Positions 28,706-58,285 of a DNA stretch of 64,000 bases are shown here, piece after piece. Location: assembly GCA_030737835.1 (NCBI GenBank), contig CM060847.1, positions 682,001-746,000 of the forward strand, in the 5' to 3' direction. This DNA is from Acorus gramineus. Taxonomy: Eukaryota > Streptophyta > Magnoliopsida > Acorales > Acoraceae. Under the pieces are notes generated by a model. The model was not told the DNA's origin, did no database searches, and saw nothing but the letters and a program-made list of their open reading frames with translations. The translations under genes and the position numbers were made by a program. Numbering within the stretch: the first letter of the stretch is position 1; every line of letters starts with the position of its first letter.

Positions 28706-30112
28706 CTAGTGGCCCGTGTATCCTCCCATATATCCTGTCTGGCCCCTTCCCCCACTCCCCTGTCCCATCTGTGGGTTCCCATATCCCCCACCCTGCATTG
28801 CAGGCTGGTTCCCATACCCACCCATCATGGCAGGGTTAGCAGCCGGATTCGCATACCCACCTTGCATCACATGCTGCCCATTATTCACCATCTGCGCACC
28901 CCCTGGGTTCACTACAGACCCAGCACCCGCAGTGCCCAGGAGATTCGTAAGCCCCAGGCCAGTACCCTGGGCTGCAAGCAGAGCCGTGATCGCCTGCCCA
29001 ATAGCCGGGTTAAACCCAGCGACAGCCCCAGGCCCTGCTGCAGCTGGATTATAACCCATTCCACCAGCCACAGCCGGGGACTGGCCGACCATATGTGCAG
29101 GCCCAGGCCCCCCTGCAAAGCCAGTATTATCACTCCTCGGAAAGTGCGTCGGGCGCGGGTTCTGGTGGGGGAACATGCCAACCACCTTGTTTGGCTTCGG
29201 CCCATCGATGGCCTTCTGGCAGTGCAATATATGACCATCAAAGCTCTTGTGTGGCTCCTCCAAAGCCTTTCTCGCGCTCTCCACCGACTTATACACGAAC
29301 AAGGCGAAACCTTTTGGCTTCCCCGTCTGCTTATCCATCCCCAACGGCCCTTCCTCGATCTCCCCGTACTTTGAAAAGAACTGAAGCAGCTTCTGCGGGT
29401 CAAGATCCGCCGAGACATTGCTCACATAGATCTTCTTCTGCGTGTGCTCCGACACAGGCAAGGCCGGGGGTTGGGTTGGGGCGGGCCCAGCGGACGCCAG
29501 CTGGCAGGCCGTCATGCGGTTCCCAATCTTCTTCTGGGGCTCCAAAAGGGCCCGACGTGCCCCGACCCGGGTCTTGAAGAGGATGAACCCGTAGCCCTTG
29601 GACTTCCCGGAGACCTTGTCGCGGACGGCGTTGCAGTCCTCGATCTCTCCGTAGCCCCGGAAGGCCTCGGCGAGGGTCTCGGCGGTGGTATCCCAGCCGA
29701 GGCCGTGGACGAAGATCTTGCGATGGACCGGATCGGACTCGGCGGACCGGGTCACTCGGTCCATCACGTCAGGGTGGGCCTCCGCCGCCTCTTTCAGGAG
29801 CTCGATCAGCTGCTCCTTCGTGAAGGGCTCCAGGAGCTTCTCCACCGCCTCCGGCTCGATATCCCCCGGCTCTGCATCCCCACCGCCGACGCCGACGTCG
29901 GCGGAAGAGGGGGTTTCGGTTTGATCGGGGGTTTCGTCGTCGTCTTCTTCATCTTCGTAGGTCTCCTCTTCGTAGAGCGTCTCTCCTTCGTTTAGGGTTT
30001 CTTCGGTTGAAGCGGCGGCGGTGAGGGTCGACTCTTCGAGGGTTGGGGTTTCTTCTTCGGCGGCGGAGGCGGACGGGCCGGATTTCGGGGTGAGCTTTCG
30101 TTTCTTCGCCAT
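28706..30112 (-). CDS. UBA2: UBA2-type RNA-binding protein with two RRMs
   Basis: An uninterrupted 468-aa frame. UBA2 proteins are nuclear hnRNP-like proteins that associate with UBP1, bind U-rich RNA and are linked to mRNA stability and wound or ABA responses. Residues 1-95 start with a basic MAKKRK, then are very acidic (DEEDDDE near 55-60). RRM1 is about 132-207, with RNP2 IFVHGL (133-138) and RNP1 KGYGFILF (172-179). RRM2 is about 227-303, with RNP2 IYVSNV and RNP1 KGFALFVY. From about 310 on the protein is Gly/Asn/Met/Gln-rich with repeated GGYGN and GGYANP elements, a low-complexity tail typical of the family. The length is close to that of Arabidopsis UBA2a. The start is the ATG at 30112. 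Codons are GC-rich compared with surrounding DNA. The stop abuts a 5' splice site. Which UBA2 member it is cannot be decided here. Confidence 0.93.
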   Translation of the reverse strand: MAKKRKLTPKSGPSASAAEEETPTLEESTLTAAASTEETLNEGETLYEEETYEDEEDDDETPDQTETPSSADVGVGGGDAEPGDIEPEAVEKLLEPFTKEQLIELLKEAAEAHPDVMDRVTRSAESDPVHRKIFVHGLGWDTTAETLAEAFRGYGEIEDCNAVRDKVSGKSKGYGFILFKTRVGARRALLEPQKKIGNRMTACQLASAGPAPTQPPALPVSEHTQKKIYVSNVSADLDPQKLLQFFSKYGEIEEGPLGMDKQTGKPKGFALFVYKSVESARKALEEPHKSFDGHILHCQKAIDGPKPNKVVGMFPHQNPRPTHFPRSDNTGFAGGPGPAHMVGQSPAVAGGMGYNPAAAGPGAVAGFNPAIGQAITALLAAQGTGLGLTNLLGTAGAGSVVNPGGAQMVNNGQHVMQGGYANPAANPAMMGGYGNQPAMQGGGYGNPQMGQGSGGRGQTGYMGGYTGH

Positions 30113-34100: not shown

Positions 34101-35178
34101 TTCTCATAATCCTCACCCTCACAGGCTAACCTTGAGAAATAATGTGGTGAGACAAGTAGAGTATTATTTCAGGTAATTAAAATTGTTTTTTCTTTCCTAT
34201 TTGGTTGAGCTTTACATGAAATTATTGTATATTAAATATATTATTTTTCCAGGAATTGTAACATTCAAATTTTTATATGATTTGTGTCCCATTGTTTTTG
34301 TAGTGACCAAAATTTGCCAACAGATTTTTTTTTGAAAAGGCAACTAGATGATCAAGGATGGGTTTCAATAAATAAAATTGCAACCTTCAAAAGAGTATGT
34401 TATCACTTAATTCACTTCATTCATATGTAATTTTTTTTTATACTCAATTCATATATAACTTGAATTTTAATAGCTGACATTTTGTGTCACTCATGATATT
34501 AGGATTACAGTTTTATATGACATTGAAATCTCTCTAATGTCTCTGAAGATATGGTTTTTATCTAAACTTGCAGCTTCAGAGTATGACCAGAGATATCCCT
34601 TTCATTTTAGATGCATTGCGGAGCTCCACCTTTATAGAAGTGCAGGTTATCCATTAATCTCTTGCCTTTAACATTTTCTAGATATTTATTAATATATGTG
34701 CTAATAAAGTTTTGGTGAAAACCATGTGCTTCTTCTCTGCTTTTTTTATCACCTCACTATCATAATTTTTTTCTACTTGGACTGATAGGGTAACAAAATA
34801 CGAAGGCGCGATTACATGACATGGCGAACTACCTCAGAAAATCAGGAGTCTTCAGCTAGGGCTGGAATGCAACCTGATCATCCTGACAACAATGCCAATA
34901 TTAAAGCAGAGGTTCAACGCCCTCTAGCAGGGATGAATATCTCGGGTCAACATATCTCTACTACACATGATGATAGTATTCAACCATCTAATAATGGATT
35001 AGAATGTGAACAACAAGCGTGCGATAACGAAAATTTGGTCGTAAACATAACAAACATTGGAAGTGTGTTTTTTAACATAATATGTAATTCTAAATCACAT
35101 GTTCAAGCAGACATGTGTGAAGCTCCAGCATCTAAAGAGGAATCAGTTGATGACTCTCCAAACGACCAGAAATCTTGA
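31123..35178 (+). CDS. LARP1: La-related protein (LARP1-type, La motif)
   Basis: LARP1-type proteins bind mRNA through a La motif and influence mRNA stability or translation in the cytoplasm. Six exons join in frame: 31123-31233, 33460-33958, 34049-34172, 34304-34394, 34574-34645, 34789-35178 (428 aa), all with GT-AG introns. Residues 38-230 are His/Asn/Pro/Tyr-rich and low complexity. The La motif is about 233-306: NVVRQVEYYFSDQNLPTDFF, QLDDQGWVSINKIATFKR, then SSTFIEVQGNKIRRRD. The conserved aromatic residues are present. No RRM or DM15 repeat follows, as in the short plant LARP1b/c type. It is shorter than typical family members, mainly at the N-terminus, and the first intron is 2.2 kb, so the short first exon is the least certain part. 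The 3' end converges on an AGO-derived fragment. The last exon has a degraded copy at 39,550-39,790. Confidence 0.85.
33099..33360. mobile_element. Possible MITE in LARP intron 1
   Basis: About 260 bp whose ends, taggctggtttgataag and ccttgacaaactaaccc, are loosely inverted, with an AT-rich interior. The inverted repeat is imperfect and I cannot identify a target duplication. The intron also has a TA run at about 32,728-32,750 and a triple GGGCCT repeat at about 32,525-32,544. Confidence 0.35.
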
Positions 35179-36860
35179 AGTGGGACATTACTTATCAGAA
35201 GGTAATACTGCATTTTATTTCATCTATGCTTTATGCTAATTAGTGCCTCTTAACATAAGCTATAAGATTTTATGAACACTTAATATATTATTTCTGGAAT
35301 TCTTTTTAACATCATAAACCAGCATGTATGCAAAATTTCATACCATCTATACCAATTGATGATGAAATTGATTATGGTATTATATTCATATCATGCTATC
35401 TCATCAACTGCTTTGTGCGTTGACAATTTGTCACTAGCTATAGGAAGTTATGAACACCTTGTTTTCTGACATTGCTTTAACATTACATAACCAATTTGTA
35501 TGCATTAAAATTCAATCTATGCTGATGATGAAGCTGATCATGGTATTTACATCATCTCTTCTGCTTTTCCAACTTTTGATACTTGATATATATAACAAGA
35601 CAGGACACAAAGCTTTTCAAGAAGAACCAAGATTTTGAAAGGTTGTTGATGGAGAGTATTACTTCAAAAAGGCACTTAGAGCTGCGGATGGCCTTCTCTC
35701 AGTTTTTTTTTTTTTTTTTTTCAAGGTACAAGCGCTTGTGTTTTCTCTTGTTTTTTTTATTTTTATTTTCCCCCATTTGACTCAGGACCATCCAGATATA
35801 ATGATTTTTTTATGGGGGGTTGCGATATAATTGTTTTTTTTTTTATGTCAGACTTACGGTCAATAAGAAGCTGGAATTAGATTATTCATCTCCTTTTTAT
35901 TCTTATTATTTTACCATTTATAGTGGTGCTGGTATCTTTTCAAAGGAGTAAAATATCCACGAAAAAATAATAATAAAATACCCACTAGAATAAGGTTATA
36001 TGAGTTGCATGAGAATACTTCATACAACTAATTGGAAAATATGGTCATAAAATAAAAGATGGGCACTGTTACATGTAGTCTTTACATAAAATCTTGCATT
36101 TTTTTGTGTTGGAGTATATACTTTATTTTTTTAGCGAAGATGCATGATTAAGTATTGTAATGTCACAAAGATGAGTTTACATTTGTCATGTGCAAGACAA
36201 TTAAGTTAAATGTGACTGATGTTTCATGAAAATCTTTCAATTATGCCCACCAAACATCAGATTTTGATTTCAAAAAGTTCAGAGGGGAAATAAGAACATG
36301 AAGGGGTCCTAAAAGTCATCCAAACCACTTGCCTTCCCTCCAGCAGTAGAAAAATGTCATATTGCATAATTTGGGATGAATGCTTGACAATTCTGGCACT
36401 GTAATGCCCCCTGAAGATGCACTTCTGCTGTGGTTGGAGGGGAACTCAGACTCATCACTGGACCTGATGAATTCAGATACATGAGTTGCAGCCAAGTTCG
36501 CGTAGTATAGAGGCTTAACTGCAACAGAAGCATCACTTTCAAATTAGACTTAAAAAACTATGTAAAGATGCAGAGATGATTTCAACAATGACAATATATT
36601 CATATAATTTAGTAGGTTAGATATTCATATCTATAGCTAGTGTGTGCTAGTGAAGCTATTATGGATGTAAATATAGGGAGTTATAATTAAGAATAAATAT
36701 CCAGATTATCCATTGAAACAGCAGTGGTGCTTCTCTGGTACCTGTATCAGTGCAGCCACAATTCAATTCATCATTATTGAACCGAGAAAATAAAATGATG
36801 ATTTGCTGCATATAACAATTTGAGAGAGATGAACTCAGGAATGCGACAGAGTGAAAACAT
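35000..36860. repeat. Segmental duplication, copy 1 (LARP 3' end plus AGO 3' end)
   Basis: Matches 39,560-41,470 in the same orientation along its length. Shared stretches are the last LARP exon, the spacer (for example ttttccaacttttgatactt, tgttacatgtagtctttacat, atgcatgattaagtat) and the last two AGO exons. The copies differ by substitutions and small indels. Copy 1 contains the intact LARP end; its AGO end is broken. Confidence 0.9.
36341..36860 (-). pseudogene. 3'-terminal fragment of the degenerate Argonaute
   Basis: Contains recognisable copies of the last exon (36518 downwards) and the 32-nt exon before it (36741-36710) of the AGO gene at 40,959-46,460, plus a few bases of the next exon's flank near 36,840. 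The translation keeps YYANLAATHVSEFIRSSDE and ends near CNMTFFY, but the stop codon has become TGC. The donor after the 32-nt exon reads GGATAATC instead of GGTATTC, so it cannot splice normally. All upstream exons are missing. Like the intact neighbour, it has Asn in place of the catalytic His, so that change predates the duplication. Confidence 0.88.
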
Positions 36861-37199
36861 GTTAGTGTGATGTGAATATACTAGTAAAAATTAAAACATG
36901 ACACATAAAAGGCATAGATGCAAGCACGCCGATATTGCTATGAAATATATTCCAAAACAAGAGTCCAATGGTAATGTGTGTGTGTGTATATATATCACAT
37001 TAATCACATATTTCACATTATCTCTCCTAGATACAATTCGTTATTATTATTGCTCAATTACAAGTTCGATTTTTGCATTCCGATACAATGTATCACTTTT
37101 TCCTTGTTTGAGATTTTCATTAAATTTTGAGATAGTGGAGGATACTGAATGATTTAGAACCTGTAGAGTTAAAACTCACATTACAAAGGAAAATTGAGG

Positions 37200-39790: not shown

Positions 39791-41470
39791 AGAGGTAATA
39801 CTAGTGACATGCTCAAAGTATTTGTGGTATTTTATTTCATTTATGCTATATGTTGTTGTGTTTAGCACCTCTAACTCAAGCTATAGGATTTTATGAATCT
39901 AGAATTCAGACTATCTATTCCAATTAATGCTGAAATTGATTATGGTGTTATATTCATATTATGCTATTTCATCAACTGCTTAGTGCATTGACAATTTGAC
40001 ACTAGTTATAGGAATTTATGAACACCTTGTTTTCCAACATTGCTTTAACATCACATAACCAATTTGTATGTTAAAATTCAATCTATGCTGATGATGAAGA
40101 TGATCGTGGTATTTACATCATCTCTTCTGCTTTTCCAACTTTTGATACTTAATATATATATAATTCTCATATCCCATTGATATAACCTGACAGGACACAC
40201 AACTTTTAAAGAAGATAAATTGTTGATGGAGTGTATGTGATGACTTCTACTTATGGCTCTCTTTTTTTTTTTTTGGTGTGTGTATGTGTGTGAGAGACTC
40301 AGTACAAGGGTGCAAGCTCTTGTATTTTCTTTTCTTTTTAATTTTCCTCCATTTGATTCAAGACCTCTAAATATAATGGTTTTTTTTATGGGGCTTGCGA
40401 AAAAATGTTTTTTTTTTTTTTTTTTTGGAATGTCAAACTTATGGTCAATAAGAATCTCCATTTGATTCTCATTATTTCACCTTTTATTGTGGTGCTTGTA
40501 TCTTTTAAAAGGAGTAGATATTCACAAAAAAATAATAATAAAATGCCAAGATCCAATAGAATAAGTTTATATGAGTTGCATGAGAATAATTCATACCACT
40601 AATTGGAAAATATGAACATAAAATAAAAGATGGGCATTGTTACATGTAGTCTTTACATAAAATCCTGCTTTTTTTTTTTGGCATTGGAGTATATACTTTA
40701 TTTTTTTAACGAAGATGCATGATTAAGTATGCGATCTCACAAACATGAGTTTACATTTTTCATGTGCAAGACAATTAAGTCAAATGTCATTGATCTTTTA
40801 TGAAAATCTTTCAATAATGCCCACCAAATATCAGATCTTGAGTTTCAAAAAGTTCACAGGAAAATAAGAACATGAAGGGATCCTAAAAGTCATCCAAACC
40901 AATAAGTATTCTCAAATGGAACCAAATCTACAAAGCCAAACTACTTACCTTCCCTCCATCAGTAGAAAAATGTCATATTGCGCAATTTGGGATGAATGCT
41001 TGCCAATTCTGGCACTGTAATGCCCCCTGAAGATGCACTTCTGCTGTGGTTGGAGGGGAACTCAGTCTCATCACTGGACCTGATGAATTCAGATACATGA
41101 GTTGCAGCCAAGTTCGCGTAGTATAGAGGCGCAACTGCAACAGAAGCATCATTTTCAAATTAGACTAAAAAACTATGTAAAGATGCAGAGATGAATTCAA
41201 CAAAGATGGTATATTTAACCCCATAGAATTTAGTAGGTTAGATAGTCATATCTGTAGCTAGTGTGTGCTTGTGAAGCTAACTGGATGTAAATATAGGGAG
41301 TTATAGTTAAGAATAAAAATCCAGAATACCTATTGAAACAGCAGTGGTGCTTCTCTGGTACCTGTATCAATGCAGCCACAATTCCACTTATCATAATCGA
41401 ACCGAGGAAATAAAATGATGATTTGCTGCACATAACAGCTTGAGATAGATGAACTCACGAATGTGAGAGC
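39560..41470. repeat. Segmental duplication, copy 2 (LARP relic plus intact AGO 3' end)
   Basis: Partner of 35,000-36,860. Here the AGO side is intact and runs on into the full gene, while the LARP side is broken. 39,800-40,958 is non-coding spacer with T-rich tracts. Confidence 0.9.
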
Positions 41471-44400
41471 GCAAGAACAAGTTCCTGTAGAGCATCGGCT
41501 GAGAAGCCTATCTCATTTAGAAGAACATGATAGTGTGTTGGTCTTGATGTTCCCTGCCAAAATATAATGGTAGTGTTATGTGAATGTACTTAGTATAGTC
41601 AATCTCTTAGGCTCCCTTTGGAAGGTTAAAATTTTTTGAAACTTAACCCATTTTTAATCTTTGGAAACTTATTATCATTATTATATAAACCATTTTCATC
41701 TGTGGTTGTCCTCTTAATCTTTTTTATAAATTGTACATCTTTTTAAAATACAAATTTTATCCCCAATTTAATGTGGTTACTGTGTGGTAATACAAGAGAG
41801 AGAAGAGGGGTGACTGATGCACCTATCTTTTTTATTAATACTTTAAAAGATGTTTATTTTATGTGGGTAAAAAATAGTATAAATCATAATCCATATCTTA
41901 GACGGAATAGTGAAAACATTTCTTTGAGGATCAATTCTAATAACAGAAGTACTTATATCTTTGTTGTCAAATGACATTTAAATATCTTTTCAGCTTTATA
42001 TAATACAATTATATGCCTTGAATAAACAAACGATAACGTCTTTATGAGAAAACTTACAATAATTCCTGCATGAGAGCACATGTAGAAGTCATTGTATCGT
42101 GGGTGACAAACTCCAGTATCGACAACAGTCCCTGCATGTGGTAAATCCTTCTTCAGGAAATAGATGGTACTACTGAAAATATCTCAGAGGGTAACTTGGA
42201 TGGCAATTGAAATAGGAAGAACATAAGCAATTATTTCTATATTTTATCACCAACCAAGAAAAACAAAAATTTTGCGACATTTGTTGATGAAAAAGCATGA
42301 ATTTTTATAAAATTCATGATAGGGTATGTGAAAGCTAACCTGGGGGTACATTATAGCTAGAACTTTTCAGGAAAAATTTAGTCCAATGTTTCTTCTGTGC
42401 GACAATCACCGTGAACTTGGGAAGTTTTTCAAAGCGTGACTGAAATCTACAGGCCTGCAATAATGGAACGACATGGCCTGTGTTATCAAATCCAAAATAC
42501 TCAACCAATTTGAAGAAATATATCAGAGTGAGTACCTGTATAATTTGATCCAATTCAATGTTCAATACTTGATCAAACTGTGAATCATATGCTCCAGACC
42601 TGAACAATGTGTGAGGAGTCAAATACAGCTAAGTCACTCCAACCATGGAACACAAAATAACGTTCACTCAAATCAGTGATCACATGCAAGCATACCGGAA
42701 AATGAAAATCTGCTCAGGCTTTTGGCCACCTGAACTTGTGTAGAATTCCTGAAACAGCTCCCTGAAATCACAAGTAATTAGAAATCATATAAAATAATTT
42801 ATTTGGATACTGATAGTATGATCCATTTGTTCTCTTAGTTATGAACACAGTAAAGAATGCGTACCAAATTATGCCTTTATCTTCATTGTTGGGCTGTGGA
42901 TTGAATAAGAAATCTATCATTTGAAACTTGGGTGATTGAACTCTCACTGTTGCTACATAGCGTGAGATCGAGGGCCACTGCCTTGAACCTACCACCTGAT
43001 ATAATGAAAAACCAGAATTACTCACCTTGTGTGTATTTAAATAATGCACCAACAAACAATCAAATAAACTTTACCGTTGCAAAAAATGGCATGTTGGGCT
43101 GGTAAGTGCCCCCACGGGTAATATCCAACCCCAAAATCATTGTAGGAACCTTAGAGACTTGGGAAATTAAAGGCAAGCATTCTATAGGCACTACGAAATT
43201 CAAACCTCCTAGCTGTGAAATGAAGAGCAGTTTTAAATGATTTGGATGGGTTTAAAAAGATGGAAACTATGTGAAGCAAATGATATGGAAGAGAGTGATA
43301 GGCCTTCTCACTTTGGCATTGATATCCAATACAAGATTTGTCATATAAGAACGATCATTAAGTTTTGGGAGAGCTAAACATTGAGTGACAATGCCATGTT
43401 CCACCACACATCTCTTCTTCCATGGACCTTCAAGTTAGATACACTTACAAGAAATTAAAAAAAATACATTTTAAAGAAGATAATCAAAGAAAGTACCCAA
43501 ACTCCTCAACTTACCATAGATATTGTCATTGTTTTTCTTGGCCAGGATGCATAGAACAAACTCTGGAGGATTGTCGGATAAGGCCTTCCTCATTTGTTGA
43601 AACATTTGATCCACTCTAACTGTCAAAGAACATTTTGTCCAATGAGAATCCTCTTCAAAGATCTTCAATAATGGTTCGACGAGCTGCAGTGGTAATTAGG
43701 ATATAAAGATCAAACCAAATTGTAAGTGATGTTCCAAAAATCAGAATGCACATGCTTGAGGACTGTACCAGTCCTTTTTGTTTTGCACATTTCACAAGTT
43801 GCTCGAACACTTGAAACGATTTGTTAGTTGCAGAGAAATTCACAATAGCCCAGCGTTTAATCTTTGCGGGTTCATAGACTCTCTGAAAAACAACAAATAT
43901 AACTGTCAGAATTCATTTTTTCCAGCATGTTCTTTTGCATGCAAAGAGAACCACTTTAAACACCTCGTTGTTGAGACACCAACGCCCACGTTGTGGAATG
44001 ATTTCCTTTCCATTGCCCACTCTCAGCTGTTGTCAATTAATGTAATAAACATACAAAAAAGTGAAAATGCAAATTCAACAACAAATTTTTTCCCCTCAGA
44101 GAATAGAAATGTACAAACAGGAGACCTTTGGAGGTTGTAGGACTCGGCCATTCAATTGAGCAAATCCAGTACTAATTGTAATGCCACAAGCATGCATCAT
44201 AGGGTCCACATTGTAATCTTCGCTCTTCAGTGCCTGCAAAAGACGCAAAAAGGAATGTGATATATTAAGCAGCATGACCACCATGGTTTCAATATGCATT
44301 GTTAAAGTTGTGAAATGCAAAGTGGAAATTCACTCACACGTTCCCAATCAATATCTTGCACTGTCTTCACATTTTGGCTTTCCAATATGAAATCTAGAAG

Positions 44401-46460
44401 AGGTCCATGCTTTAAAACCAATGCCTTATAAACATCTGTACATGGAAGTGATAAACAAAGAACCAAAAACTAAATTAACTTAAATAGATGCACAACATTA
44501 GGTGAAAATAGAACATACATAACTTATCATTACCAAAATTAAGAGTCAAGCCTATCTGGGTCTCTTGGAAGCTAGTATGGAATCCCCAGCCTGATGGACC
44601 ACCTCCTGACTCTCCATTTTGAGATTTGTTCTGGAATGAAGACTGGCTTAAAAGAAGGGATCCTCTGAGAATGCACAGAAAAAAAAAGACAAACAATGTC
44701 ATAAGCAATTTAAACTATTAACAACCATGTATAGCCCAAGCATGTGTAGGAGATGTGTAACATTCATGTGACATACTGTTTTGCTGTGTGTTGCCTCAGT
44801 ATGATATCCAGCACTTTTAAAGCCTCCTCAGACATCGCAGGGTCGTGTTGGTGCAAAGCGTTGATCGGGATTTTAGATGAGAAACATATCTCAACCTTAA
44901 AGGTCTTTGGACGATCCATTCTCTGCCTCTTGCAATCACTCTCATTAGCTCCGTTCCTACCAATGCTAGTTCTTCATCCAAAAAGATATTTTAAGCTATA
45001 TAGTCCATGATGTAGCATGAGTATACATACATTGCCATGATACGTATTTCAGTTACCAAATTCATCAAATACTCGAAAGGCAATATCTTGTATTGATAAG
45101 TCACCCAATCTTACAAGTGTGCAATGTTCAGTGAATGGGTACAACAACAGTAATAAGCCAAGCTTAAAGGAATCAATGCATGGGTTTTCAAGATTTTCAG
45201 TGAACCAACATGAAAAAAAAAAAAAAACATGAAAAGTCATTGTGTAATGAATATAACAAGGAAAAAGAAATTTTTCCCAAGAATGTACACAGAACCATGA
45301 AATGCAGTGCCATGAAATACAAAGACTAACCAAAGAATTCAATGTATGGGTACATAATATTTTACACCAAACCAGCACGCAGAAACACATTGGGTAACAA
45401 AAAAGTTATTCCAAAATTTTTTATTTTCATTTTTTGGGTGTAAAACATAAATTGCATATTTGCATGCATGTGACAAAGGCAGAGTCATTAATTCCAATAT
45501 CAAATATTGTAAAACAAACAAAACAAATGCAAATATGGAGCATCACACGAGTGACTTCTTAAACACAAATAAGCATGCATGCATGAGAGGGATTTAGTGG
45601 GCCCACTTGTTTGAATGGTGGGCCGGGAGGCCCACAGTGAAGCAGAGCCGATTCTGAGGCAGAGGGCCCACGGTGTAGAGCCCATTCACCCCATCAAACA
45701 CAAATGGCTTCCTCAACAGCTTTTCCGAATACGTCTCCCAAACTTTCTCCAACACTTTCCTTCCCAATATGCCCCTCCCCTCCACGGGCCTCCCGTTCTC
45801 AAAACGTATCAAAACCTTCCCAAAATGTCCATAAGAAGAAAAATTAGAAGCCTATCCAACCCATTTAAAAACAGAAAAAAAATGTTACATTCAATCCATT
45901 TTACAATATAAAACACAGTTCACCTATGTTTTCATTTTAAAAAAAAAAATCATATTCATCATGATATATGTGTTTTTATAAAAGATAAAATACATCTTCC
46001 ATTTAATTGAATGTTATCATTTAAAAAAATGTTAAAAAAATTCAAAGAGAGACATGAGACTGCGTTTTAAGTGTAAGAAAACTGACACTGTATTGAAAAA
46101 AGTGAGTTTTATCTAATGAGGTATATAGTTTTATAAAATATAAATCATACACTCCGAATGGTTTCATTTATAAAAAATATGAAAAAATTTCAATTTTAAA
46201 ACTGTAAAAAAAATTGAGTATAACAACATGGAAAAACTCACGTTGTAACGAAAGAAGTGGGTTTTAAGGCCCATATCAGTGAATGAGGCCTTGAAATGGT
46301 TGGAGAGGAGGTCGATGGGCCTTCCGGCGGATCCATAACCGGGTCTCAACATGGGGACCCGTTTGGACTTCACTGACTGGGCTGCATTATTTGGTGGAGG
46401 AACCATTGGAGGTGGTGGAAGCATTGTTGAAGACACTGTTTTTCTACTGTAAGTCTTCAT
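40959..46460 (-). CDS. AGO4-clade Argonaute lacking PAZ, catalytic residues lost
   Basis: Exons (high to low): 46460-46242, 45815-45607, 44956-44777, 44664-44534, 44435-44338, 44233-44126, 44026-43964, 43882-43769, 43683-43515, 43427-43312, 43212-43075, 42995-42865, 42761-42696, 42599-42536, 42454-42340, 42131-42058, 41553-41459, 41361-41330, 41134-40959; 2298 nt, 765 aa, no stop or frameshift. Most exon lengths equal those of the adjacent AGO4. N domain and linker 1 are present (to residue 279, ...QDIDWER). The next exon begins ALKSEDYNVDP in linker 2, so the three exons covering AGO4 residues 309-435 (PAZ) are absent. MID keeps Tyr430, Lys434, Gln446 and Lys469, the expected guide 5'-phosphate contacts. 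PIWI tetrad: Asp499 kept (ILGLDITRG), then Gln540 for Glu, Ser582 for Asp (IFRSGAYDSQF), Asn715 for His (YYANLAA). The C-terminus is MTFFY. Splice sites are canonical; the exon 2 donor (AA|GTGGGC) is weakest. It could be a recent pseudogene, but the open frame argues for use. Confidence 0.9.
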
Positions 46461-50022: not shown

Positions 50023-53000
50023 CTAGCAAAAGAACATGGAGCTGCTTACCTTCTCATGCAGACGAGGCAGCTCGGGGACCGGTACGTTGCCAGCAGAGGT
50101 GACTCCTCCATGACCCGAGGAAGTCTCCGACAGGTCATCAAACTTCATAAATTGCCCCATCTGGCTTGCCGCCAAATGAGCATAGCAGACTGGTGCAACT
50201 GAAGCAAAGAAATCCATCAAAAGTTGGTGGAAAGATTTGTGATATATAAAAAAAAAAACAAAAACAAAATTTTATAGAGGTATCCAGAACATGATAGCAA
50301 TTGCTGTCAAGAAGAAGAATCATGATATGAGACTCACCGACAGAAATAGCTGTTGTGCTTCTTTGGTAGCTGTTTGACATAAAAAGAAAAGTATTAGGAG
50401 TTATTTTAGTTCAGAATATGATTGGAGAAAAAAAGAGCATAATAGGAATTAAAAAAAAGAATTTAGTTTACTTACACATATGAGAGAGAATGGACAAGCT
50501 CCTGGAGGTCATCAGCTCCGAATCCGATCTCATCAAGCAAAACATGGTAATGTGTTGGCCTAGTTGTTCCCTGTTTAAAAGGTGTATCAGGAATTAAAGT
50601 GGACAATCGATATGCTTGTCTCAAAAAATTTCTGGGTAGTAACGTATAAAAAGGTCAAGAACAGCTTACAATCATCCCAGCATGAGCACACATGTAAAAG
50701 TCATAGTTCCGCGGGTGACAGACCTTGTTATCAACAACAGTACCTGCATGGAGATCATAAAACTCCAGAACCAGATAAAATAATGGAGACCTTAAACAAC
50801 TAAATAAAAAGGAAGGTTCAGTAAGAGTTTAAAATGAGATGCACCTGGGGGGACATTATCAGGGGAGTTTGTCTGGAAAAATTTGGTGTGGTGATTTTTC
50901 TGGGCTATGATCACAGTAAACTTTGGACACCATGTCTCATCCAGGAACTTACAAGCCTGCAAGAAGGTTCAATCAAGCTTACAAATACTTACTTTAACTA
51001 CAACAAATGATTAAGGATGGAAACAAGTCTTACCTCAATAATCTGATCAAGTTCAATGTTCAAAACTTGATTAAACTGTGATTCACTAACTCCATCCCTA
51101 TACATCAAAGAATGAAAAGTATAACAACAGAGAGAATAAAATCTTCACATTATTAGGAAGGGCAGGTATTTTATATGGCAGGATGAACAACTTGTGTTAG
51201 TCCCCCAACTCCTAACACATTCAGACAGAATATGAGCACCTCGACGGTCAGCCTAAAAAAGGCATTTCTACATGATGCATGATTAAAAAAAATCCATGGA
51301 GAAATATTATGCCACAGAAATATCACATAAACAGTCATCAATGACAAATGATAACTAACAAGTAAGGATGTATTTTGACCTATACATATTCACTGCTAAA
51401 CATGCATCAAGTTCAACCCAGCAGGATCAGCACCAGAATCATGCTACAGCAAACATAAAAGTTACACCTTCATGCATCTAAAATGAAAGGACCTAAATAT
51501 CATGTAAAATCAACTGAATTGGGTATAGAGTGCACAATAATATAGGAAAATAATCACCTGAAAATAACAATCTGGTCAGGCTTCCTTTTCTGGGAACTTA
51601 CATAGAAGTCCACCAACAGCTCCCTGAAATAAAATTTTAAGAATCTGTTCAGCAAAACAAAAAATGGCACACACTACAAACATAAAAAAAGTATTGAGAT
51701 CTTGAGAGTCAAAAATCACTACAGAAATGATGGTTATTGAGTATACAAGACCTAATAATGCCATCATCATCCTTATCAGATACTGGCTTGAAAAGGGAAT
51801 CGATCATTTCCACCTTAGGCGACTGTGTCCGAACTGATGCTCGATATTTAGATATCAGTGGCCACTGTCGAGAACTAACTACCTATAAATTAACAGAAGG
51901 ACAAACATTCCAAAACAAGGGAATTAAACAAAAATTATACAATTTCACAAAAATTTACAACAGAATTTTAGCAAAGGAAAGAACAAAATATATAGGAAGC
52001 ACATTACCGCAGCAATGGAAGGAATATCTGATTGCCCAGGTGAACCATGAGAAACATCCATACCAAGGATAATGGTAGGTGCCTTTGAGACCACCCCGAG
52101 GTTATGTGACTGCTCAATTGATAATAATGAATTCATACCACCAAGCTGTGGGAAAAGTGAGACAAGATCAGAGACACTAATTGCCTTGGGAAAAAGCATG
52201 AACAATTGATATATGATATACTGACAAACATGGGCAAACCTTGGCATTGATTTTCAAAAGAACATTAGTCAAATACTGATCATTGACTTTCATCGGGGCA
52301 ATGCATTGTGTCACAATACCAAATTCCGCCAAATTCTTCTTCTTCCATGGACCTTGTAAAAAAAGTCAAAATGCATGTCAGATTTTTATTCTTATAAATG
52401 ACACTGAACAATAGAATGGATAACAGACCATATATGTCACAGTTTTTCCTCTCCGGTAGAAGGCAGAGAAGAAAAGTTGGTGCTCCAGGAAGCTTGGTCT
52501 TTATTTGCTCGAACATATCATCCACCCTAGCAACAGGAGGAGCACGTCGCATTTGAGGACTTTCTTCAAAGATTTCCCCAAATGGTTGTTCGATATTCTG
52601 CAAAATGAACACAGAAGCTCAGCCTGACAGAACAAGAAAAAAAACTGCATAAAAGATGTGGATAAGAAACCTACAATGCCTTTCATTTGACCACATCTGA
52701 TCAAATCAGACACTAATTGCCTCGCATTGCAGCGCGCTGAAAAATTTACCACTGCCCACTTACTGACAGTCATCGGCTGAATCAGCTTCTTATTATTAAA
52801 ATTCCACCGCCCATTCCGGGCAAAAAAGTCTTCACCATTGCCAGCTTTTAACTACATCAGGAAGAACATAAGCACATGCGTTAAACAAAAAAATAATGCA
52901 ATCAAGCACTAATAGAAAGCGAGGAGGTATTCATCAAAAATTAAACAAATCAGCATTCAAAAATATTAAATACTGATCGATTCACACAAAAAAAATAAAG

Positions 53001-55524
53001 CATTAAAAAAAACTCAACATGAATTAAAAAATTTACCCTAGGAGCTTGTAAGACCCGTCCTTCGACCTGTGTAAAATTTGGATTTATGCTGATGCCACAA
53101 GCACGTAACATAGGTTCAGCATCATAATTGCTTTTCTTCAAAGCCTGCCATATTATCAGTATGAACATTAAGTACACAATTCAAACGTAAAATTGAAATG
53201 CACTTGACAAGGAAACTTACTCTGTTCAGTACATCCATTCTTTCTTGTGGTTTCTGCCTCGACTTCTCTACCAGTGATGCCCTTTGTAGAGTAGATAGAG
53301 ACTTAGTATATCGTTGAAGCGAAACCAGTGTGCAAAACTAAAACAGAACACAGAAATATTGTCAGTGCACCACATAGGGAGAATCTACATATCACAATAA
53401 ACAGATAAGTGGCCACAGTAGCCACTGGCCAGCTCACCTCCAACGGAATGTAAGTTGGACGCTTTGGTCGTCCAACATTAATGCAAGGAAAATCAGCAGA
53501 ATAACGCAATTCCACTTTTTTCAAATTGACAAAATAATCATATACTGTGACCTCTTCTGCATCACAGTCCCCATCAGTCCCAGTTCTCTGCTTCAGAGTA
53601 AAACTGCAACAAGAAAAAAACGAAGTTAAAAATGGCACGAGGACAACAATGCATACAGAAAAGATTCAAAATGACACTGACAAGCATCTCTAAAAAGTCT
53701 TGCGTGCAACAAATAACATAAAAAAAAAAGGCTCAAGTGCTGTAGAACAATCCACTGTAATAATACTATGTTGGACATATAGAAAAAGATGGTTCAAAAC
53801 AATACATCTCATTAACAGATTGTTAATCAAATTAACACAACTCGAGGTAATCTGAGAAAAGAACTTCTTCAAAATATATAAGGTGACACTAACCACTGTT
53901 GTTTACAGGGAAGTTCGCTTAGCCCTGTAATTTTGCACTCCATGTTATTGGGCATAGTTTTAACTCTGAGGTTTTTCAGCATGCGCTTTGCCTGTTGACA
54001 ACAAACTACTGAAACTTAGTATCCTTCCCATCACAATGCTGAATTTCAGAAAATATAAGAACTTGCCTTAGCCCAGTCCACATCATATGGCGACCTCACA
54101 TTCTGATTTGCAAGGAGAAAATCTACAACAGGTCCTGGTTTAACAATCATGGTGGTAGACACATCTGTGTGCGACAGAAACATTACAAAGTCAATGCAAA
54201 TTTCACATAATCAATAAGGTTGGTAGTAAGAGAATATTTATGAGCGCAAAAAACTGTTAGGAAAATTGAAGGGCACTCTAAATATTACTTACAGACAAAA
54301 CATGGACAAAATAACAAGTATTAGGTTACTCTACAATGATATATATGAAAAAACAAAGAGGTGAAACTAAGCAATGCATAAACATAGAAAGAAAACTACC
54401 AATATTCAAAGAGAGCCCATTTTGAGCAGTTCGAAAACTTGAGTGGAAACCCCTACACCCTGTCACACCTCCTCCAAGATCGGTGAAATTAGTTGGATCA
54501 TTGTGAAAAAAAGATTGTCGCACAAGTAAGCATCCCCTGGAACAAACGTTAAACCCAAACAATGCTTGAGCAATAAGGATTGAAATAAATAAAAAGACGA
54601 AAGCTTGCATGAGAGATAGCGAATGCACAGGGAAAACACTTACTGCTTTGCTGCATGCTGCCTCAGGATGATGTCCAGCACCCGGAGAGCTTCCTGAGAA
54701 TTTTCAGATTCACGCCCCCTTAAAGCATCACCAATTGCTTGCATGGGTATCTGGGCAGCATAGATAATTTCAACTTTGAACTTCTTCGACAGAGGAGGTC
54801 GTTTCATCCTCTTCCTATCACCTTCACCTGGAGAGTCATTTCCACCAGGACTCCCATTCCCATTTGTAGCAACCCTAAATGAGGAATGATTTTCAGCAGA
54901 TGTGCAACAAGTTTAAATTATTAAATAGATAAAACAAGGAGACAAGTCTCTAGTAAACCTGTCAGAGGAGATTTCATCTAGCACAACCAAAAATTCATTG
55001 TTCTTTTGGGGAAGTGCCCCAATTGTAAACAGGCTTTTTTCCCCGTCGTACGCAAAATCTTTGCCCCCCAATTCTGATGAATATGCCTGTTGTAGCTTGT
55101 CAATAACCCTTCGTCCAATACCCTTACCATCAACAGGGCGATCATCTTCATATTTCAAAGCAACCTGTTTAGAACATTCAAAAAATTATAAGAGATGCAA
55201 TCATTTCAACCACAGAAGCCTCCAGAACCACAGGAAGATATAGGTGAAGAATAAAGAGAGAAGGTAACTTACACTATAATGGAAGAAGTGACCACTGGTA
55301 TTGTTCACTTTCACTCCAAAATGGTTGGTGTAAAGAGGGATTGGTTGGCCTTTCTTTCCAAGACCAGTTCTTGCCATTGGTAGCCTCTTGGGTATTGTAG
55401 GCTTTTTAGGTGCTTCCACCTTTTTCCCTTCAGCTTTGATGGGAACAACATTAGGGGGCAGCGGAGGAGGTGGCGGTAAAGCCAACCCAGAATTTTCTCC
55501 TCCTACATCTTCGGAAGGCTCCAT
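50023..55524 (-). CDS. AGO4: Argonaute 4
   Basis: AGO4 loads 24-nt siRNAs and guides RNA-directed DNA methylation in the nucleus. Exons: 55524-55273, 55164-54959, 54874-54644, 54536-54400, 54164-54067, 53991-53894, 53603-53438, 53337-53221, 53144-53037, 52851-52675, 52597-52429, 52352-52240, 52145-52008, 51882-51752, 51623-51558, 51097-51034, 50956-50845, 50743-50670, 50570-50476, 50369-50338, 50198-50023; 2760 nt, 919 aa (Arabidopsis AGO4 is 924). Order: Pro-rich start, N domain, L1, PAZ (within about 309-435, [18 protein letters not shown]), L2, MID, PIWI. Catalytic residues: D654 ([11 protein letters not shown]), E695 (KVEMID), D737 (IFRDGVSES), H869 (CYAHLAA). It ends SSSMFFC, usual for AGO4. 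MID has Tyr586, Lys590, Gln602 and Lys624. The fifth intron uses a GC donor (AAG|GCAAGT); the others are GT-AG. The AGO4 clade includes AGO6, 8, 9 and 16, but length and C-terminus fit AGO4 best. A paralog lies 3.6 kb downstream on the same strand. Confidence 0.96.
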
Positions 55525-57689: not shown

Positions 57690-58285
57690 TGTTTTCATCC
57701 TTTTAAAATAAGTCAATCATTAAAAACTCCTTTTAAAAATATAATATTATTATAAACTCTATTTAAATGTTAATTGGATTTGTAAAAAATTTAAATAAGT
57801 TATTTTTTAACCGAATAAGTTATTAAAATATAAATTGACAATAAATTCTTACACTAAAAAATATCCTAACTTGATAGAAAAAAAAACCCTTCCATTGATC
57901 TAAACCCTTTTCCATCAAAAAAAATTTGGGAGTACTAATTTCTTTTTGTTTTGTTGACTGTTGGGTTTTACAAATCCAGTTAACATTTAAAGAGGATTTA
58001 TAATTATATTGTGTTTTATAGTATTTTTTTAATAATTTCCCTGTTTTATGAGGGATAGAAACTAAATAACATTTTTTTTCTATCAAGTTAGGATTTTTTA
58101 GTAATGGAATTATTGTCAATCCATCATTTAATAATATATTCAGTAAAAAATAATTCATTTGAGTTTTTTACAAATCCAATTAACATTTAAAAGGGGTTTA
58201 TAATAATATTGTGTTTTAAAAAGAATTTTTAATAATTTGAATGTTTTAAAAGGGCGTGAAAATTAAATAACTCTTTCTATATGTG
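57690..58285. mobile_element. Foldback element with arms of about 110 bp
   Basis: 57,690-57,800 and the reverse complement of 58,166-58,280 match with few differences (shared blocks include ttattataaact/c and aaatgttaattggatttgtaaaaaa). A further partial copy of the right arm lies inside at 57,975-58,075, and a tcaagttagga motif is inverted around the centre. It is non-coding. Confidence 0.7.

Follow-up and report, generated by a model that had tools for sequence, protein, structure and literature searches.

The 64-kb stretch of DNA analysed here (the window), from the marsh plant Acorus gramineus, carries two neighbouring AGO4-type genes on the minus strand. One of them, gene B, is a canonical AGO4, and the other, gene A, has no PAZ domain. 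Is gene A a real gene that has lost PAZ, and what could its product still do? The features on which the answer rests are as follows.

40959..46460, minus strand: gene A, a PAZ-less AGO4-clade gene; 19 coding exons, 765-770 aa, from the splice-joined frame and Pfam
44338..46460, minus strand: gene A exons 1-5; N-terminal extension, N domain and linker 1 (L1)
44234..44337, minus strand: gene A intron 5, 104 nt, phase 0, where the PAZ cassette is missing (L1 ...DWER / ALKSED... L2)
43515..44233, minus strand: gene A exons 6-9; linker 2 (L2) and the first part of MID, with the Y529 equivalent late in exon 9
43963-43883, minus strand: extra intron of gene A, 81 nt, within the exon homologous to gene B exon 10
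40959..43427, minus strand: gene A exons 10-19; the remaining MID and PIWI, with the tetrad D-Q-S-N and D at the K566 equivalent
50023..55524, minus strand: gene B, a canonical AGO4; 21 exons, 919 aa, with exons 6-8 (53991-53221) as the PAZ cassette
34969..37183, minus strand: truncated tandem copy of gene A exons 18-19 (36740-36343) with 3' flank, in partly rearranged order

Exon structure and the missing PAZ cassette

The 19 exons of gene A were joined without an internal stop, and all 18 introns are of the GT-AG type. Exon 3 has three in-phase acceptors (44971, 44965, and 44956), which give 770, 768, or 765 aa; the open 765-aa frame of 19 exons described in a first-pass annotation was reproduced with the acceptor at 44956. 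For exon 2 we prefer the start at 45815, which reproduces the exon start of gene B, while 45851 is an alternative in-frame acceptor 36 nt upstream. The version with exon 2 from 45851 (12 additional residues, 780 aa) was used for the homology searches, Pfam, the comparison with P0205, the tree, the conservation analysis, the neutral-expectation estimates, the residue alignment, and the exon mapping. Intron 2 has weak or ambiguous splice sites at both ends. The median donor strength, scored with a donor matrix, was 1.36 bits in gene A versus 2.37 bits in gene B. Weak donors exist in gene A, such as that of intron 6 (AAG/gtctcc, -2.7), but the weakest donor of gene B (-4.3) is weaker still.

Of the 18 junctions of gene A, 15 are matched by public gene models (predictions rather than transcripts). 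The A. gramineus model P0163 ('Protein argonaute 4A [Acorus gramineus]') backs the 12 that lie between exons 6 and 18, and the three between exons 3 and 6 are backed by the A. calamus model P0205 ('argonaute 4A'). Junctions 1/2, 2/3, and 18/19 are matched by neither model. P0163 corresponds to the linker 2-MID-PIWI part of gene A, with 100% identity over 99% of a 412-residue query; it spans gene A from exon 6 into intron 18 only, and exons 1-5 are absent from it. P0205 is 93% identical to gene A over 391 aligned residues. It omits exons 7, 10, 15, and 16 and parts of exons 8 and 11, a skipping that may come from lesions in the A. calamus gene or from faulty prediction, and exons 1-2 and 18-19 in the present reading are absent from it. 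No convincing match to the start of P0205 was found in the window. At the other end, the final residues of the model resemble 38398-38347 plus either an out-of-frame exon 18 (41364-41332) or the fragment copy (36744-36709). P0163 was the sole protein nearly identical to gene A in the best 120 of 739 and the best 120 of 466 matches. Since gene B, taken as a control, likewise had no near-identical read-assembly match in the best 120, this scarcity says nothing on the expression of gene A. Gene B itself is annotated as P0122, 'Protein argonaute 4B [Acorus gramineus]' (100% identity across 89% of gene B), a model that is incomplete (825 of 919 aa).

Exons 1-5 of gene A correspond to exons 1-5 of gene B, exon 6 to exon 9, exons 7 and 8 together to exon 10, and exons 9-19 to exons 11-21. 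The phases are identical throughout, and every difference in length is a multiple of 3 when exon 2 is taken from 45851. The exon-for-exon match to AGO4 noted earlier thus holds apart from residues 309-435, except that one extra intron splits the equivalent of gene B exon 10. The exon-intron structure of the AGO4 clade, for which gene B was the sole comparison, is therefore shared by gene A with one intron extra and three exons gone. The 81-nt intron (43883-43963) is either a gain in gene A or a loss in gene B.

The three exons without a counterpart in gene A are gene B exons 6-8, which comprise 381 nt or 127 codons (residues 309-435) and are in phase 0 at both ends. Gene B without this cassette remains an open frame of 792 aa. 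Since the cassette is phase 0 at either end, a single deletion could drop PAZ in frame. In gene A the reported junction 44338/44233, where DWER is followed directly by ALKSED, is as claimed, a phase-0 GT-AG intron with the donor CGT/gtgagt and an acceptor ending in tcttttgcag. Directly before the cassette in gene B, intron 5 has a GC donor at 54066 (AAG/gcaagt). A donor of the GC type could favour alternative splicing, and skipping of gene B exons 6-8 would yield an in-frame PAZ-less AGO4.

Pfam PAZ is present in the annotated model of gene B. The gene A protein matched five families at E values up to 10, none of them PAZ, at a limit where HMMER filters still drop most matches above about 0.1. 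When six AGO4 PAZ regions were compared with the 64-kb window by tblastn, the next-best match outside gene B had an E value of 0.14, and the idea that the PAZ exons lie elsewhere in the window was rejected. Gene A thus departs from a canonical Argonaute, in which PAZ holds the guide 3' end.

The first-pass annotation had proposed a search of related genomes for the same exon loss, and the L1-L2 junction was found to be identical in A. calamus: P0205 reads ...QNVKTMQDIDWEHALKSEDYNVNP... and gene A reads ...QNVKTVQDIDWERALKSEDYNVDP... at this position. Since the junction is common to both, PAZ was lost before the two lineages diverged, and the occurrence of the junction in a second species makes an assembly error there very unlikely, so that this explanation was rejected. 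PMC10282084 places the split of A. gramineus and A. calamus at about 9.9 Mya (95% interval 5.6-21.6), with a Ks peak of 0.058. Judged from the sequences, the PAZ loss is real, leaves an open frame, and predates the species split. One deletion between two phase-0 introns, probably in a single step, would have taken out the three exons before that time. In the matches listed, which are top hits, 186 of 282 proteins have linker 1 and MID-PIWI. Among these 186, six cover under 60% of the PAZ cassette, and two of them, P0205 and P0211, have none or almost none of it. A PAZ loss common to two species is unusual in this sample of top hits.

Domains and catalytic residues

Pfam detected N, L2, and PIWI in the gene A protein above the cut-offs, with 288 bits for PIWI. 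MID (24.5 versus 27.5 bits) and L1 (13.6 versus 22) were below their cut-offs, which counts against a working gene. We take the numbered residues of human AGO2 to be those of the catalytic tetrad, the 5'-phosphate pocket, and the seed contact. In the alignment, D597, E637, D669, and H807 correspond to D, Q, S, and N in gene A, whereas DEDH is kept in all of the 23 full-length AGO4 rows; three of the four slicer residues have thus been lost. P0205 shows the same E-to-Q and D-to-S changes, and the histidine position is outside its model. Since Q and S are common to gene A and P0205, the catalytic glutamate and the second aspartate were, like PAZ, lost before the species split. The gene A protein should accordingly be non-slicing, as far as its residues predict. 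The earlier picture of a PAZ-less Argonaute was right as to PAZ and incomplete, because it overlooked the destroyed slicer centre.

It had also been suggested that the protein could bind a guide 5' end without holding the 3' end. Retention of four of the five residues of the MID 5'-phosphate pocket (equivalents of Y529, K533, Q545, K566, and K570) speaks for this, and the replacement of K566 by D and of H712 by W speaks against it. These two changes may impair 5'-end and seed binding and possibly abolish guide binding. In the region taken as the tryptophan (GW-partner) pocket, some AGO4-invariant residues are altered in gene A; the human 694 and 698 positions, which fall in a less reliably aligned part, are changed from L to Q and from W to E.

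The predicted structure of P0163 (424 aa), with a modest mean pLDDT of 68.7, has the MID-PIWI fold. Its best structural match is AtAGO10 7swf, with an E value of 6e-28, a TM-score of 0.74 by query length, and an rmsd of 6.3.

Origin and constraint

In the phylogenetic tree, gene A and P0205 formed a pair with 100/100 support, whose stem branch of 1.29 changes per site is about ten times the median end branch (0.13). The 12 AGO6/16 rows formed a 100/100 clade that excludes gene A, which agrees with descent from the AGO4 clade. The placing of gene A inside or beside AGO4 received support of 23/0, and topology tests did not reject a sister relation to gene B (AU p 0.41) or a grouping with the monocot AGO4s (p 0.15). 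An origin of gene A in the Acorus lineage is thus not rejected by the sequences compared. Three fragmentary AGO4 rows (P0173, P0203, and P0238) were in the tree and were excluded from the 23-row conservation and residue counts. Over about 760 residues gene A is 50.3% identical to gene B and 49.5-53.2% identical to 22 AGO4s. The synonymous sites of gene A and gene B look saturated, with an unreliable NG86 dS of 4.4 and differences at 100 of 161 fourfold sites. Since the identity to gene B is no higher than that to other AGO4s and the synonymous sites are saturated, a recent tandem copying of gene B was rejected. Gene A would rather be an old, fast-evolving AGO4-clade paralogue adjoining a normal AGO4 in Acorus. 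No orthologue of gene A outside Acorus was recognised in the best 120 of 739 and the best 120 of 466 matches (search spans, proteins of about 429-1365 and 227-721 aa), where gappy models can rank low, as P0205 did.

At columns that are invariant in the 23 full-length AGO4s, gene A keeps 213 of 293 residues, including all 11 in linker 2, and at the other columns it matches the consensus in 196 of 463. This preferential retention suggests that the fold was probably under selection through much of the history of gene A. When the frame of gene B was allowed to drift neutrally to 50% identity in simulation, a mean of 19.7 stops arose, with at least 10 in each run (n = 20).

Constraint since the species split was estimated by the dN/dS comparison that the first-pass annotation had called for, here against A. 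calamus. Gene A and P0205 differ at 26 of 391 residues, compared with a neutral expectation of 45 at a Ks of 0.058 (P 7e-4). The resulting dN/dS of about 0.56 assumes that the Ks of the gene equals the genome peak of 0.058; at a gene-own Ks near 0.03 it would be neutral and not below 1. The 391 residues leave out the exons skipped by P0205 and may be the better-kept ones. In a comparison of 392 columns with 27 differences, one residue more than the above count, the two species differed at 4 of 115 kept AGO4-invariant columns and at 23 of 277 other columns, which is suggestive only. Constraint after the split looks weaker than that on a strongly conserved gene.

Under neutrality, 2.8 stops, 2.1 splice-site hits, and 3-9 frameshifts (about 8-14 lesions) are expected on the A. 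gramineus branch when indel/substitution ratios of 0.05-0.15 are assumed, and none was seen. The probability of this outcome is 4e-4 to 8e-7 with indels and 0.008 without them. Because the splice sites of gene A were picked to keep the frame open, the test was not blind, and the absence of lesions should be read as an upper-end argument.

The truncated tandem copy has AT instead of GT at the donor of intron 18 and a stop codon changed from TGA to TGC, and its codon differences from gene A are amino-acid-changing in five cases and silent in one. By these marks the copy is decaying. Two other features were observed in the window. A single-exon open frame of 468 aa (28706-30112, minus strand) has two RNA recognition motif matches, and inverted and direct repeats clustered upstream of gene B (57699-58266) are possibly a small mobile element.

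Possible roles and comparison with known Argonautes

We give roughly an even chance to gene A being a weakly maintained, non-slicing pseudo-Argonaute. It would still be coding in A. gramineus for a protein with N-L1-L2-MID-PIWI, in which the 5'-phosphate pocket is partly retained and the 3'-end pocket is absent. Such a product, if it is made and works, would most likely act through its fold and partner contacts and not as a loaded effector, perhaps by occupying AGO4 partners or by a brief hold on small-RNA 5' ends. The decoy, dominant-negative, or small-RNA-turnover role put forward in the first-pass annotation would be a hypothesis. In its strongest form, it seems unlikely: Acorus would have retained, over some 10 million years or more, a dedicated PAZ-less, slicer-dead Argonaute, created by loss of the phase-symmetric PAZ cassette, as an endogenous dominant-negative that regulates AGO4-type RdDM through competition for partners or the 5' ends of small RNAs.

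A weakly maintained protein is slightly favoured over a decaying AGO4 paralogue, a young pseudogene that is still open in the assembly by chance and gives no working protein, although decay is a serious contender. The long stem branch, the loss of PAZ and three of four catalytic residues, the exon skipping of P0205, as expected of a lesioned copy, the dead 3' fragment adjoining gene A, and the only moderate dN/dS all fit decay, but the 19 exons contain none of the lesions expected at the assumed indel rates, and the conserved columns are preferentially retained. That the A. gramineus model P0163 is partial is a weak argument for decay, since the gene B model is likewise short. The start of P0163 in exon 6 and its stop in intron 18, together with the poor splice sites of intron 2, might instead mean that the locus gives two shorter products, one with linker 2-MID-PIWI and the other from the N-terminal part. 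We consider this improbable, because P0205 connects the A. calamus equivalents of exons 3-6 across the PAZ-less junction and the phases of gene A follow those of gene B throughout. An artefact, in which the PAZ exons were lost in assembly or mis-annotated, or are located elsewhere, is hardly credible. The published Acorus assemblies, likely including the source of the window, are PacBio-based and had indel errors in the raw assembly before polishing, according to PMC10282084. Against an artefact, the second species' gene model has the same junction, the window gave no PAZ match outside gene B, and a GT-AG intron of 104 nt occupies the site.

A PAZ-less relative of AGO4, common to two species and with an intact AGO4 as its neighbour, offers a natural test of the abilities of an Argonaute without PAZ and slicing. 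The phase symmetry of the PAZ cassette, seen in gene B, means that deletion or exon skipping could produce an in-frame PAZ-less AGO4. This symmetry, the junction shared with A. calamus, and the loss of the slicer centre are new here. In the literature searched, at the level of titles and the beginnings of abstracts, no plant AGO was described as being without PAZ, which is not proof of absence. The first-pass annotation knew of no described plant AGO with this architecture; public gene sets do contain PAZ-poor plant AGO4 models, P0211 and P0238. A tea survey counted a protein as an AGO only if it had N, PAZ, and PIWI domains, a rule by which PAZ-less AGO genes can be filtered out; the missing PAZ in that survey belongs to a Dicer-like protein and not to an AGO (PMC8060290).

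Gene A resembles the plant AGO4 clade, represented by gene B (P0122), in exon structure, phases, the order N-L1-L2-MID-PIWI, and four of five 5'-phosphate residues, whereas it differs in having no PAZ, D-Q-S-N for D-E-D-H, D at the K566 equivalent, an extra intron, and a long stem. P0205 of A. calamus is alike in the PAZ-less junction, its identity over the aligned residues, and the E-to-Q and D-to-S changes, and unlike in that its model skips several gene A exons. P0211 (Ambrosia) and P0238 (Festuca) also have N and L1 followed by PIWI with no Pfam PAZ match, and their coverage of the cassette is 0% and 31%. In contrast to gene A, neither has a Pfam L2 match, and model or assembly faults are possible; P0211 otherwise resembles an ordinary AGO4. 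The Archaeoglobus Ago and the Leishmania PIWI-like protein belong to other lineages and presumably have no close relation to AGO4 and did not arise by loss of an exon cassette. What they have in common with gene A is that both the Archaeoglobus fulgidus Ago (PMC10954474) and the Leishmania PIWI-like protein (PMC3528672) are members of the Argonaute family without PAZ.
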